NCBI GenBank assembly: GCA_018606805.1
Contig: JAGYWI010000022.1
Span: 1 to 49,634 of the forward strand
DNA: 49,634 bases
From: Candidatus Magnetomicrobium cryptolimnococcus
Lineage (GTDB): Bacteria; Nitrospirota; Thermodesulfovibrionia; Thermodesulfovibrionales; Magnetobacteriaceae
Reading direction: 5' to 3'
Shown here: positions 18,610 to 42,888 of the stretch, piece after piece
How the letters are laid out: every line of letters starts with the position of its first letter
How positions within the stretch are numbered: position 1 is the first letter of the stretch
Translations under genes and position numbers: made by a program
The notes under the pieces: model-generated
The model's database searches: none
Told to the model about the DNA's origin: nothing
The model's input: only the letters and a program-made list of their open reading frames with translations

Positions 18610-19761
18610 TTATTCTTTTCCTTCTACTAAATCCCACAGGTTATCCTGTCCCACCTTGCCGTCTATATGAAACACCCTGTCTGCAAAATTCCTCTGCAAA
18701 ATACGGAAACCGGAATCCGGTGGAAACCATGGCGTAAATACATATATCTTTAAATTATCGTTGGCTGCCAGCGATTGCAGAATCAGAGTATTAATATATA
18801 CATCTCTAAAGGAATAACCAATAACCATAAGCTGTTCTGTTTTAAGTAGCCGTTGGGCAAATAGGTAGTGCAAACTCCTAAAAGGTTCTTTTTCTGGAAT
18901 CCCCCTATATCCGGGATAAATAAATGCAGGGACTTCCGGGTCCTTTGGCAGCCTTGCAGCACCTCCCATGAATACATAACCGTTTAGCTCATCCCAGTTG
19001 AGTGAACCATGTAATTTGTATATCTCCACAGTACCATCAGGCGGCTGTTGAAACTTTGGTTCAAATATAAAAAATAATATGCGAAATTGAAATCCTAGAT
19101 ATATATTTTCAACTTTATATTCAGCCCATTCTTGACGTATACCCCTTGGTGTATTGAAAACGTTTTCCAAAATCAAGTCATAATTAGTTGTAAATATAGT
19201 AAGTTTACCGTTTTGCTTTTTTAGAACTGGTGCAAATATTGGTTCATACACAGAGATAGCCTTATCTGCTTCAAAACGTGAAAAAGCAGTGTATACATAA
19301 TGCTTAATATCCTTATCCAGCTGTCTGGATTTCTCCGAAAGCTCCTCAAGAGCTTCGGCAACGTTAGAGGCTGTTTTAACCTTTTCACTGCCCTTAACTA
19401 AGGCATTGACATCCGTTGATGTTGAAGTTGAAGTTGCAAAGGCATGTAGGGCACTAAAGGCTGGGTTAAAGTGTTGGTATATATTTTTGCTAGCGATTCG
19501 GAAAATTTCCCCTGATTGAAAGGCTTGACGTAAAAAATTTAGTTCTACATTTGAAGATATGTCCTTGTAAAATGAAAGCAGCGCAAACACTGCTTCAAGG
19601 TCAAGCTCTTCTTTTTTGTTGTCAGCTAAACAGTTACATATAAAATTAAACAACGGACTCAACGTTGGCGGTGGATTATAATTGCTAAAAAAACCCTTTG
19701 TTACAGGTAAACCCAGCGGCTGTGAAGCTCCAGCACCTAATAAAAACATTGTATCAGACAT
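18610..19761 (-). CDS. SIR2-like (SIR2_2) domain protein
   Basis: 383 residues with the NAD-binding signature set of stand-alone SIR2-like proteins: FLLGAGASQPLG at the N-terminus, FTTNYDLILENVF (Asn/Asp of the active site), YKLHGSLNWDELNG (His), and MVIGYSFRDVYIN at the C-terminus. Homologues in Thoeris, Dsr and short-Ago systems cleave NAD+ during phage defence, but many stand-alone members are uncharacterised. A four-Cys zinc ribbon of deacetylase sirtuins is absent. It is the promoter-proximal gene of the mltG-ispG operon, which is unusual for a defence gene. The function is inferred only to the family level. Confidence 0.8.
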   Translation of the reverse strand: MSDTMFLLGAGASQPLGLPVTKGFFSNYNPPPTLSPLFNFICNCLADNKKEELDLEAVFALLSFYKDISSNVELNFLRQAFQSGEIFRIASKNIYQHFNPAFSALHAFATSTSTSTDVNALVKGSEKVKTASNVAEALEELSEKSRQLDKDIKHYVYTAFSRFEADKAISVYEPIFAPVLKKQNGKLTIFTTNYDLILENVFNTPRGIRQEWAEYKVENIYLGFQFRILFFIFEPKFQQPPDGTVEIYKLHGSLNWDELNGYVFMGGAARLPKDPEVPAFIYPGYRGIPEKEPFRSLHYLFAQRLLKTEQLMVIGYSFRDVYINTLILQSLAANDNLKIYVFTPWFPPDSGFRILQRNFADRVFHIDGKVGQDNLWDLVEGKE

Positions 19762-36766: not shown

Positions 36767-38098
36767 ATGATACTTTTAAGAAAGATACTTAATAAATTAA
36801 AAGAAAAAGAGCTACTTAAATGGAGCAGCGTATCACTATTAGTAAGAGTAGGCGGTATCGCCTCGGGTTATCTGCTGACTTTAATCATCGCTAGATACTA
36901 CGGCCCATTTGCAATGGGAATATACACGCTTTCACTAACAGCCCTAAACCTTATATCCGTCATTGGCAATCTCGGCTTTGATACAACCGCCGTACGCCTC
37001 GTCTCCGAATACTCATCCAAGACGAACAGTACGGCTGCTATTAGGAATGTGTATTTGAAATCATTAATCGTTGTAGTGCCCTTTTGTATAGCCCTAAGTG
37101 TATTGTTTTTTTCAATATCTTCTTATATAGCAGAAACAGTGTTTCACAAAGGCGGATTTGCCCCATACCTTAAATTAATAGCCCTGTGCATACTTCCCTT
37201 TACGCTTATAGCCATACATGCAGAAGGTCTGCGGGGTCTAAAGAAAATTTTTCACTACTCCTTGCTTCATGATACACTGTTACCATTTGTTTGTCTTATT
37301 GTTATAAGCATAGGGGGGATTTTTTTTAAGAAATCTGACTTTATACCAGTTATAGCATACGTGGTAAGCATATTTGCAGTTTCCATTTACGGATTAATTT
37401 TATGGTTTAAATATGTAAAAATACGTGGCACTTCAAAAAGATATAAAGGCATTACGTGGCGTGAGCTTTTTTCCATGTCAATACCAATGTTTTTCACCTC
37501 ATTTTTCATATTAACCCTAAACTGGGTAGATAAACTCATACTTGGCATCTACGTAAGCGAAAGTGAAGTGGGCATTTATAACGTTGCATTTAAGCTTTCA
37601 GCCGTAACAAGTCTCTTTTTGTTATCTATAAACAGTATATCTGCCCCTAAATTTGCACAATATTACGCAAACGGCGATATGAAAAGACTTGAACTTACAG
37701 CTAAACAAGCCGTTAAACTGCTCTTTATAAGCTCCACTCCCATACTTGCAATACTATTTATATTTAGCGACCCAATATTAGGTATATTCGGCACACCATT
37801 TAAAGACGGGCATTACGCCCTTTTAATGTTAACATTTGGACAGTTTGTAAACTCCATATGCGGCTCCGTAGGGCTTATACTGCTTATGACTGGAAAAGAA
37901 AAGACTCTAAGAAATATATTGTTTTTTTGCGTCATAGTAAGCATATTATTACACGTAGTATTGATACCACACTTCGGTATAAACGGCGCAGCATTTTCAA
38001 CCGCTGTTGGATTCATTTTAGCAAATTTGCTGGCTGTTTTTTATATTAAACAACACTATGGTTTTTACACCTTTGCTTTTTTGAAAAGATCAACATGA
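36767..38098 (+). CDS. Wzx-type oligosaccharide flippase
   Basis: 443 residues with about 12-14 membrane helices of the MOP superfamily polysaccharide transporters: LLVRVGGIASGYLLTLIIARYYG at the start, WVDKLILGIYVSESEVGIYNVAFK in the middle, and the C-terminal half repeating helices. It would flip lipid-linked repeat units for the neighbouring locus. Homology begins at ATG 36767 (MILLRKILNKLKEKEL); a long upstream frame is the antisense of the phosphodiesterase gene. Its TGA overlaps the next gene's ATG. Confidence 0.88.
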   Translation: MILLRKILNKLKEKELLKWSSVSLLVRVGGIASGYLLTLIIARYYGPFAMGIYTLSLTALNLISVIGNLGFDTTAVRLVSEYSSKTNSTAAIRNVYLKSLIVVVPFCIALSVLFFSISSYIAETVFHKGGFAPYLKLIALCILPFTLIAIHAEGLRGLKKIFHYSLLHDTLLPFVCLIVISIGGIFFKKSDFIPVIAYVVSIFAVSIYGLILWFKYVKIRGTSKRYKGITWRELFSMSIPMFFTSFFILTLNWVDKLILGIYVSESEVGIYNVAFKLSAVTSLFLLSINSISAPKFAQYYANGDMKRLELTAKQAVKLLFISSTPILAILFIFSDPILGIFGTPFKDGHYALLMLTFGQFVNSICGSVGLILLMTGKEKTLRNILFFCVIVSILLHVVLIPHFGINGAAFSTAVGFILANLLAVFYIKQHYGFYTFAFLKRST

Positions 38099-38835
38099 TA
38101 CATCCTAATCCCAATTTGCACTCAATCAAAGATAGTATATTAAGAAAGCTCCAAAATGCAGGTATAGCAGGTTTAAACATACAGCTAATAAAAAAAAATT
38201 TTGCAAATGTAGATACTAACCACTTAACTGCAATATTAAATGAACTTGAAAAAGAAAACCAAATAGTTACACTAAAACATGCCGCTACCTCTCATCATTA
38301 TTTCTTAAAAGAAATATTAGATACCCATATTGCTACTTTAACTAATTATATTGAAACACAATTTTTTTTAAAAACAGATTTAATCTCTATTAAATCAATA
38401 CATAAAGATATTAAAATTTATTTAAAAAATGAATATTCAAAACATGCTACACAAATTATAATAGACAAACTTATTAATGAACATATACTTATCCCACTAA
38501 AATATGCAAACAACTTTCTATACACTCACATATCAAAGCTAATACCATATACTACTCAAAAACAAACCACTCAAATCAATAGGGATAAAGTACTAAGTGC
38601 ATACAATAAATTAGTAAAGACCTCAAGAGGCATCAAAACAGTTGAAATATACAAACTACAAAAGGAGCTTAACGTACCAATAAAACAGTTATGGAATTTT
38701 ATCATGGATGAAAACAGCAGCGGTAACGCTGAACTTCACAAAGGCGACCTATCAGAATCAACCGAGGAGGCACGCCTAGCCGCTATAGAAATCAATGGAG
38801 GCAAGTTCTTACTTGTAAAGTTTAAAAATGAATAA
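38095..38835 (+). CDS. Unrecognised protein with winged-helix-like repeats
   Basis: 246 residues, Lys/Ile/Asn-rich. I do not recognise the family. The predicted secondary structure suggests two or three helical winged-helix units: HSIKDSILRKLQNAGIAGL..., TNHLTAILNELEKENQIVTL, and later ATQIIIDKLINEHILIPL and RDKVLSAYNKLVKTSRGIKTVEIYKLQKEL. It starts within the flippase stop (ATGA) and overlaps the ATPase gene by 8 nt, so the two form one unit. A DNA-binding or adaptor role for the ATPase is plausible, not shown. Confidence 0.6.
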   Translation: MIHPNPNLHSIKDSILRKLQNAGIAGLNIQLIKKNFANVDTNHLTAILNELEKENQIVTLKHAATSHHYFLKEILDTHIATLTNYIETQFFLKTDLISIKSIHKDIKIYLKNEYSKHATQIIIDKLINEHILIPLKYANNFLYTHISKLIPYTTQKQTTQINRDKVLSAYNKLVKTSRGIKTVEIYKLQKELNVPIKQLWNFIMDENSSGNAELHKGDLSESTEEARLAAIEINGGKFLLVKFKNE

Positions 38836-40753
38836 AAAAGTAAAAGAAACTAACTGCAACCCGATAGACCCTTTTAAAAATAATATCGTATACGATCCAA
38901 GGAAAATAACTGGCTCCGTTAAAAGCCTAAATAACGAAATCCTAAGTACGCTAATAGAGCGTTTCAAGCGGCTAATAATAAATGATAAAATCCCCGTAAC
39001 AGACAGCAGCATTCATGCACAATTGGTCATATCCCCAAACGCCGGCTACGGTAAATCCCACTTACTTGGCAACCTGTTTGAACTCCTAAACCAAAAGGCT
39101 ACCTTTGTATACCTAAGACCATTCGTTGACCCTGCTACATGCTGGAGGTCCATATTGTTTAAAATTATACAGGAACTGGATTTTCCCGATAGACTAAACA
39201 CCGATACCCACGACGTTGACGGACCTACACAGCTTGAGGTTTTCACAAATGAAATACTCGTTCATTTCATGATAAAGGCTATTGAAAACGGCAAAATCAA
39301 GACAAACGACAATCAACCTTTTTTAGAATTACTCAAACAACCGGAAAACTCTAAACTCACAAATACAAAGAAGTGGTACGGATGGGTAAGGAAATATTTT
39401 GATATAACAAACACTAAAAACTTCCAAATACTCGATAAATGGTTTCATGAGGAAGTTAAACACTTAGCATTAAATTTCAGCCCCAATAGCTACCTAAAGG
39501 CCTTTTTTATATATACGTTTTTTTCACATGATAATGATGACTTAAGGCAGGCATGTCTTGATTGGCTAAAAGGTGAGAGCTTCGATGAAAACTTTATCCC
39601 AAGCATAGAGATTACTCCAAAAGACCTCGTCCCACCTGAAACAACCAGTGCTGAAAAAAATGGCATCTGTAGAGATAGGATAATAGATATTTGTAAGTTG
39701 GCTGGATTTTTCCGCCCATTCGTTTTTTGCTTTGACCAAACCGAGTACTACTGTAATAAAAAAGAGCTGGTTGACGCCCTTGGTTGTATTATCGAGGGTA
39801 TCATGGCGGATTGCCCAAACCAGCTAACAATCATTACAGCTAATCAACTGTCATGGTTTAACGAAATTGAACCTTTTTTAAAACAGGCATACATTGATAG
39901 GATAGAAAGCCCACACTTTGAACTTGAAGGGTTAAATAAAGGGCAAGGGATGGAACTCATCAACATCAGGTGTAGTGAATCCAGTTGTGAAAAAAAGATA
40001 AAAGGCGCTTTTTTAAAAAATAAAAAATGGCTAACTACCCTCTTTGAAAAAGAAACTGTCATGGGGGTACGGGATTTCCTGAAAGAATGCAGCCTTCAAT
40101 GGAATCATTTTAGGAATCATTTTAGGAATCATTTTAGGAATCATTTTAGGAATCATTTTAGGAATCATTTTAGGAATCATTTTATTAATAATACTCCTAA
40201 AGAAAGTATACCACAAAAATACAACACATACATTAATAAAATTACAGCACAATCCAAACGACACATTTTTTCAGCCGACATCCTTTTTGTCATAATTAAG
40301 GATATAGCTGCCTCTATACCTAAGATAAAAATTGAGCCTTTTAGTGATAAAAGTGGCAGCAAAGACTATTTTTCATTAAAATGGAACATTGACGATAAAA
40401 CACTGCTCTTTGGCTTTGAAAATAACTCAAATAACAGCAGGTGGATAGCTATTACCAAACGGGCACAAACACTTTTTGACTCTAAAGAAATAACAAAAGC
40501 GGTTTTTTTAAGAACCCCAGACCTCAAAGAAATCCCGCCAAAAAGCTGGAAAGTCAATGCTTTACAAATAAATCAAGCAAAAGAAACATTTCTAAATATT
40601 ATATATCTTAGTAATGATAAAATGCTGAGACTTTATGCAGCATATGATTTCTATATAGACGCCATTGAAGGCAATATCGAAGACACTAAACAAGAAGTAG
40701 CAGCATTCTTAGTTAATGAACTACAATGGCTATGGAATAAAATAACAAACTAA
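38828..40753 (+). CDS. P-loop AAA/STAND-like ATPase with NHFR tandem repeat
   Basis: 641 residues. Walker A is SPNAGYGKSHLLGNL (about 69-83) and a Walker B-like FVFCFDQTEYY is near 300; NPIDPFKNNIV at the N-terminus resembles the NPF-type openings of large conflict-system ATPases. Residues 426-453 are seven perfect units of Asn-His-Phe with Arg (last unit Ile), encoded by seven identical 12-bp repeats. It overlaps the upstream wing-helix-like gene. The family may be related to Orc1/KAP-type or phage-defence ATPases; I cannot name the system. Confidence 0.6.
   Translation: MNKKVKETNCNPIDPFKNNIVYDPRKITGSVKSLNNEILSTLIERFKRLIINDKIPVTDSSIHAQLVISPNAGYGKSHLLGNLFELLNQKATFVYLRPFVDPATCWRSILFKIIQELDFPDRLNTDTHDVDGPTQLEVFTNEILVHFMIKAIENGKIKTNDNQPFLELLKQPENSKLTNTKKWYGWVRKYFDITNTKNFQILDKWFHEEVKHLALNFSPNSYLKAFFIYTFFSHDNDDLRQACLDWLKGESFDENFIPSIEITPKDLVPPETTSAEKNGICRDRIIDICKLAGFFRPFVFCFDQTEYYCNKKELVDALGCIIEGIMADCPNQLTIITANQLSWFNEIEPFLKQAYIDRIESPHFELEGLNKGQGMELINIRCSESSCEKKIKGAFLKNKKWLTTLFEKETVMGVRDFLKECSLQWNHFRNHFRNHFRNHFRNHFRNHFRNHFINNTPKESIPQKYNTYINKITAQSKRHIFSADILFVIIKDIAASIPKIKIEPFSDKSGSKDYFSLKWNIDDKTLLFGFENNSNNSRWIAITKRAQTLFDSKEITKAVFLRTPDLKEIPPKSWKVNALQINQAKETFLNIIYLSNDKMLRLYAAYDFYIDAIEGNIEDTKQEVAAFLVNELQWLWNKITN
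40101..40184 (+). repeat. Perfect tandem repeat, 7 x 12 bp, inside the ATPase gene
   Basis: The unit GGAATCATTTTA is repeated seven times without a single change. It is read as Asn-His-Phe-Arg, so changes in copy number stay in frame. Perfect identity suggests a recent expansion or ongoing length change. Confidence 0.9.
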
Positions 40754-40909: not shown

Positions 40910-41920
40910 TTAATAAACTACAATCTTACCACTTCCCTCAATAACGGTCCCAACTTGTTTATAAAATATATTATTGGTCTCAAAATACTTAAGATATTCT
41001 TTCTTAAGTGTAATTAAAAGTCCTCCTGAGGTTTGTGGGTCTGATAAGATTAATTTTTGCTCTTCTGAAATGGCTGTGTTAAAAATAGTATTCTCCCGCG
41101 CAAAATTCAGATTTCGATATGTCCCTTCTGGACACATCCCAAAGTCTACCATCTCCGTAACATTCTCTAAAAGCGGAACACTGCCAAAGTCAATCATAAA
41201 GTCAATCGGTAATCCTTTAACCATATTTATAGCATGGCCAAGCAGTCCAAACCCTGTTACATCAGTGCAAGCTGTAGCATTTGAAAATAGCGCAGCTTCA
41301 GAGGCAGTTTTATTTAACATTGTCATCCATCGAATAGCAATATCAAAAACTTCCTGTGTTATCTTTCTGCCCTTAAGCGCTGTACTTAAAATGCCATTTC
41401 CAATAGGCTTAGTAATTATAATAACATCCCCAACCTGAGCACCCTTACTGGATAAAATATTTTTCTTCTCAACTACACCAGTAACCGATAGACCAAACTT
41501 TAGCTCACCATCTTCAATTGAATGTCCTCCGATAAGTGCAACCTTTTCCCCTCTAAGAACTTGACTTGCCCCGTCAAGTATATCTCTTAGTACACAACTA
41601 TCAAGCTCACGAGCAGGAAAACCGCAAAAGGCAAGAGCCGTCACCGGTTTACCACCCATAGCGTAGACATCACTTAACGAATTGACAGCACTTATAACGC
41701 CAAACGTAAACGGATCATTAACAATAGGTGTTATCACATCTATTGTTTGCACTAACAGCGTGTTGTCTAATTTATACACTCCACCATCATCACCAGGACC
41801 TATGATTAGATTAGGAGAGTTAAATACATTTAGATCAAAAAGTATATTTTCAAGGTCCGCCGGACCTAACTTTCCTCCTCAACCAGCCGCCTTCACCCTT
41901 TCGGTTAACCTGTAATCCAT
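40910..41920 (-). CDS. selD: Selenide, water dikinase with in-frame Sec (UGA) codon
   Basis: 336 residues if UGA is read as selenocysteine. It makes selenophosphate from selenide and ATP. The N-terminus from ATG 41920 reads KAAGUGGKLGPADLENIL, the exact family motif with Sec at residue 14 (TGA at 41881-41879). Then GPGDDGGVYKLDN, TPIVNDPFTFGVISAVNSLSDVYAMGG, LIGGHSIEDGELKFGLSVTG, CTDVTGFGLLGHA and LSDPQTSGGLLI follow. A conventional caller would begin near 41779 and lose the catalytic N-terminus. Sec in SelD implies that SelA, SelB and tRNA-Sec are encoded elsewhere. Confidence 0.95.
41853..41867 (-). promoter_or_regulatory. Bacterial SECIS hairpin in selD
   Basis: On the minus strand AGGTCCGGCGGACCT forms a stem (AGGTC/GACCT or one pair longer) with a CGGCG-type loop, starting 11 nt after the UGA at 41881-41879. 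Position and size fit a bSECIS recruiting SelB. It is read in frame as part of KLGPADL. Confidence 0.65.
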
Positions 41921-42597: not shown

Positions 42598-42888
42598 TTA
42601 CAAGCACATTTCTTGTAAACTTTCCATATATTGTGTCCATTCGTGCGGCAAACTATATTTTTTCTTATTATTACATTCCTTACAGGCAGGTACAACGTTG
42701 GATTTTTCAGACATACCACCACGTGATATGGGGATGACGTGGTCCATAGTAAGCTCATTGGGGTAAACACCTTTACTACAGTAATAACATCTTCCGTGAG
42801 CACACTTGCGCTTCCACCAAGTTGTTTTTCGTAATATTCTACCTTTTTGCTTTTGTTTATTTATAAAAATATCAGAAATATAAATCAC
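42598..42888 (-). CDS. HNH endonuclease
   Basis: 96 residues with a full HNH zinc-finger nuclease: CYYC, TMDHVIPISRGGMSEKSNVVPACKECNNKK, that is the His-Asn-His core plus two CxxC zinc pairs. Stand-alone small HNH proteins of this type occur next to DUF507 and ribosomal genes or as parts of mobile elements; a housekeeping role is unknown. The start is GTG 42888 with a weak ribosome site. It follows the second DUF507 gene by 17 nt. Confidence 0.85.
   Translation of the reverse strand: MIYISDIFINKQKQKGRILRKTTWWKRKCAHGRCYYCSKGVYPNELTMDHVIPISRGGMSEKSNVVPACKECNNKKKYSLPHEWTQYMESLQEMCL

Follow-up and report, generated by a model that had tools for sequence, protein, structure and literature searches.

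The window (the whole 49,634-nt stretch of DNA analysed) almost certainly carries, on its minus strand, a gene for a selenocysteine-containing selenophosphate synthetase (SelD), in which an in-frame UGA near the start of the frame is followed directly by a bacterial SECIS hairpin. The genome also holds the machinery for selenocysteine (Sec) insertion and two further genes with a TGA at a known Sec site.

The selD gene and its product

The features of the locus are as follows.

40910-41920, minus strand: selD (selenophosphate synthetase; selenide, water dikinase), from TIGR00476, the match to 2yye and translation with TGA read as U
41879-41881, minus strand: in-frame TGA, predicted Sec codon (residue 14), aligned with the Cys/Sec of SelD proteins
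41853-41867, minus strand: core of the bacterial SECIS hairpin, AGGUCC-GGC-GGACCU, from folding, a bSECIS model scan and covariation in UGA genes
40910-41779, minus strand: truncated ORF of 289 aa with a GTG start, the expected output of a standard gene caller

The selD frame begins with ATG at 41920 and ends with a TAA stop at 40912-40910, giving 337 codons including the stop and a product of 336 aa. Its sole internal stop is the TGA at 41881-41879 (codon 14), and when this is translated as U the N-terminus reads MDYRLTERVKAAGUGGKLGPADLENILFDL, which confirms the in-frame UGA within a KAAGUGGK motif that an earlier note had placed upstream of the apparent start. Without recoding, only the listed ORF from 41779 to 40910 is obtained. 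There is no obvious ribosome-binding site upstream of the ATG at 41920. A small HNH endonuclease gene lies upstream on the same strand (42598-42888).

The TIGR00476 profile matched the product over residues 4-308 with 330.3 bits (cut-off 125), and the match to structure 2yye had an E-value of 6.6e-79. This is the SelD of Aquifex aeolicus (PDB 2yye, 2zod, 2zau), the closest solved structure by sequence, and nearly its whole chain aligns. The two proteins have the active-site motif G-C/U-x-x-K in common, which reads GCAAK in the solved Aquifex chain and GUGGK here, so that the Sec/Cys-xxK signature of the SelD N-terminal loop is present as U14 and K17. Judged by this alignment, the TGA occupies the active-site Sec/Cys position of the family and the gene is predicted to be an ordinary SelD with an active-site selenocysteine. 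One other match to this protein in the genome was partial (28%, 8e-8) and there were no further ones, so that no second SelD was found.

Conservation of the UGA codon

The family search covered 19 genomes of the taxonomic family to which the organism belongs. In-frame-TGA SelD genes were found in 14 of these, the present genome included, the matches in G001 and G014 being split or partial, and reading at the nucleotide level showed TGA at the same codon in all 14 detected family SelD genes. When both searches were taken together, the site was TGA in 81 of 92 relatives and a Cys codon (TGT/TGC) in the other 11, a ratio that is not a population frequency, as the query was of the Sec type and only its best-matching relatives were retained. 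UGA thus stands where homologues hold Cys, and the statement of the earlier note that many SelD proteins have Sec at this site agrees with the well-documented Sec-type SelD. A published survey reports Sec in 19% of its reference-set SelD genes (PMC4561486).

Two simpler accounts of the TGA can be weighed against these data. That the TGA arose from a Cys codon through an error of sequencing or assembly is extremely improbable: TGT and TGC are each one base away and Cys SelD genes do exist among the relatives, but the TGA is in register in every detected family gene and in most relatives across many phyla, it is followed by a SECIS-like hairpin with covariation, and the full Sec machinery is present in the genome. 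The same TGA in so many independent genomes excludes in practice the error that the earlier note had named as a way in which it could be wrong. There is equally little to be said for the UGA as a true stop, with a working protein made from the GTG at 41779 without the catalytic loop, or with the locus a pseudogene. The 289-aa ORF is indeed what a standard caller would report, but in the family the peptide encoded by the 13 codons before the TGA and by those after it is conserved, and the ATG lies at an equal distance across the orthologous set. SelD requires its Sec/Lys loop, which the truncated form would lose.

One family genome, G003 (92% complete), had no match above the cut-off to SelD, selA or tRNA-Sec, a pattern as expected from joint loss of the whole trait or from absence from the assembly. 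A quick tree built from 91 SelD proteins placed the sequence described here with ten family members and two named Nitrospirota genomes (SH-aLRT 99), which suggests that the host is one of the Nitrospirota and that descent was mostly vertical. The SelD proteins of G002 and G007 fell elsewhere, apart from the other family members. These divergent copies (L110 and L109, respectively) are 38-39% identical to the present one, and in both the TGA is followed by a longer and differently built hairpin, which in G007 is GUCCGACA-GUUC-UGUCGGAC.

The SECIS hairpin

The hairpin stem starts exactly 11 nt past the UGA, as the earlier note had it, and the loop begins at 17 nt. Folding of short stretches gave -8.6 to -8.9 kcal/mol for AGGUCC-GGC-GGACCU. 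Published limits for bSECIS elements are a stem of 4-16 bp, a loop of 3-9 nt, G in its first two positions, a distance of 16-37 nt from the UGA to the loop, and a minimum free energy of -7.5 kcal/mol or lower (PMC13188914); the selD hairpin, with 6 bp, a 3-nt GGC loop, 17 nt and about -8.7 kcal/mol, lies within all of them. Compared with dinucleotide shuffles the fold does not stand out (z -0.6 to -1.2), and an Rfam search of the window matched no family, so the case for the hairpin rests on comparison.

Two sets of sequences were compared. Among 32 hand-picked relatives, which were selected for similar hairpins and so weigh less than the unselected set, the six base pairs are intact in 91.7% of cells, compared with 11-60% when one side is slid, and two of the pairs show two-sided changes. 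The unselected set comprised all 78 distinct UGA sequences, and in it pair 18-26 occurs as U-A, C-G, A-U and other variants. These two columns are complementary in 50 of the 63 UGA genes with GPxxL (permutation p about 5e-5, a value that ignores relatedness) and in one of six Cys genes, a small sample drawn entirely from one Bacilli clade. The wobble base of the Gly codon is U in 42 of 46 UGA genes with GPxDL and is A, A, A, G, U and C in the six Cys genes that have this peptide. The peptide is therefore kept but the wobble base is unfixed once the UGA is gone, which argues for a role at the RNA level. A synonymous-codon control, in which z averaged -1.5 in the UGA genes and -0.6 in those with Cys, is suggestive only.

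These comparisons leave an even chance that the hairpin of a Sec-type SelD dictates protein sequence as well, a constraint that would be lost once Cys replaces Sec. The residue set by the hairpin, three codons past the Gly of GP, might then be Asp, Gly or Val, whichever keeps one base pair, a proposal we consider evenly balanced. Its pairings, about which we are likewise in two minds, would be GAC with Gly GGU, GGC with Gly GGC, and GUC with Gly GGA.

Sec machinery and other selenoproteins

The earlier note had proposed that the organism decodes UGA as Sec, and that absence of selA, selB or tRNA-Sec would count against this. All three are present in the genome (98.5% complete): one tRNA-Sec gene with a UCA anticodon (71.6 bits), one selA (575 bits) and one full-length selB (377 bits). 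Together with the conserved TGA and its hairpin, they support Sec decoding. They also speak against a genome-wide reassignment of UGA to another amino acid (e.g. Trp, code 4), which we regard as very unlikely. The frame is open through the UGA, as reassignment would have it, but six of the 33 listed ORFs of the window end in TGA, and the selD frame is the only one in the window whose TGA extension resembles the continuation of a gene.

The expectation that further selenoproteins would be mis-called also held good. Two formate dehydrogenase genes each contain a single in-frame TGA, which lies at NCARV-U-HAPT on contig C80 and at NCARL-U-HTPA on contig C9, and bSECIS-model hairpins lie behind the TGA in both. 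On C9 the formate dehydrogenase that comes next carries Cys at this position (NCARL-C-HTPA). The two adjoining genes (G000 contig C9:28873-33896; L129, L130 and L141), which lie outside the window, resemble known Sec/Cys FdhA pairs in having a TGA copy and a Cys copy at NCARL-x-HTPA, and are possibly a selenium-dependent and selenium-independent pair.

Selenouridine synthase (TIGR03167) was not found in the genome, which leaves Sec as the only known use of the SelD product here. None of the TusA, FlpD and AhpC/TSA matches in the genome has an internal stop, and a search for Rdx (SelW-like) found none.

Other features of the window

A scan of the window for further TGA-extended frames gave no convincing second selenoprotein. 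The longest such frame, before the SIR2-like gene at 19761, was rejected, as that gene's own ATG begins just past the TGA. The gene itself (18610-19761, minus strand) encodes a 383-aa SIR2_2-domain protein that resembles SIR2-type defence proteins in PADLOC, and it adjoins the housekeeping genes yceG and gcpE. A 12-bp repeat that encodes repeated NHFR is present in seven perfect copies at 40101-40184, inside a 641-aa ORF (38828-40753). Neither this ORF nor its upstream neighbour (38095-38835) matched a Pfam or PADLOC family.

Proposed mechanism and significance

By analogy with the known family, the mechanism would be the standard one. The ribosome would initiate at the ATG at 41920, and SelB, held by the hairpin that starts 11 nt past the UGA at 41881, would deliver Sec-tRNA(UCA) at this codon, after which translation would continue to the TAA at 40910. 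The enzyme would convert selenide and ATP to selenophosphate, with two residues of its mobile N-terminal loop, Sec14 and Lys17, as the probable participants, and SelA would use the selenophosphate to make the Sec-tRNA on which synthesis of SelD itself depends, along with that of at least two formate dehydrogenases. That a Sec-type SelD needs its own product for its own synthesis is a known property of such enzymes.

Sec-containing bacterial SelD proteins have already been documented (PMC1794560, PMC4561486, PMC13188914). In the portions of two of these accounts that bear on the comparison (PMC1794560, PMC4561486), they have the same single Sec position in the N-terminal loop with a bacterial SECIS directly behind it, and the same co-occurrence with selA, selB, tRNA-Sec and Sec formate dehydrogenase; nothing fundamental differs from the present case, and the SelD of this lineage is not singled out in those portions. 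The arrangement of UGA and hairpin is already known and widespread, and the finding is correct but ordinary. For general biology it is one more example in a well-documented family, and the most unusual detail of the locus is the apparent constraint of the hairpin on the protein. For the organism, the selD product should be annotated as 336 aa with Sec14 in place of the 289-aa fragment. UGA is almost certainly recoded in this organism, and at least two other genes, the formate dehydrogenases, would then be mis-called too.
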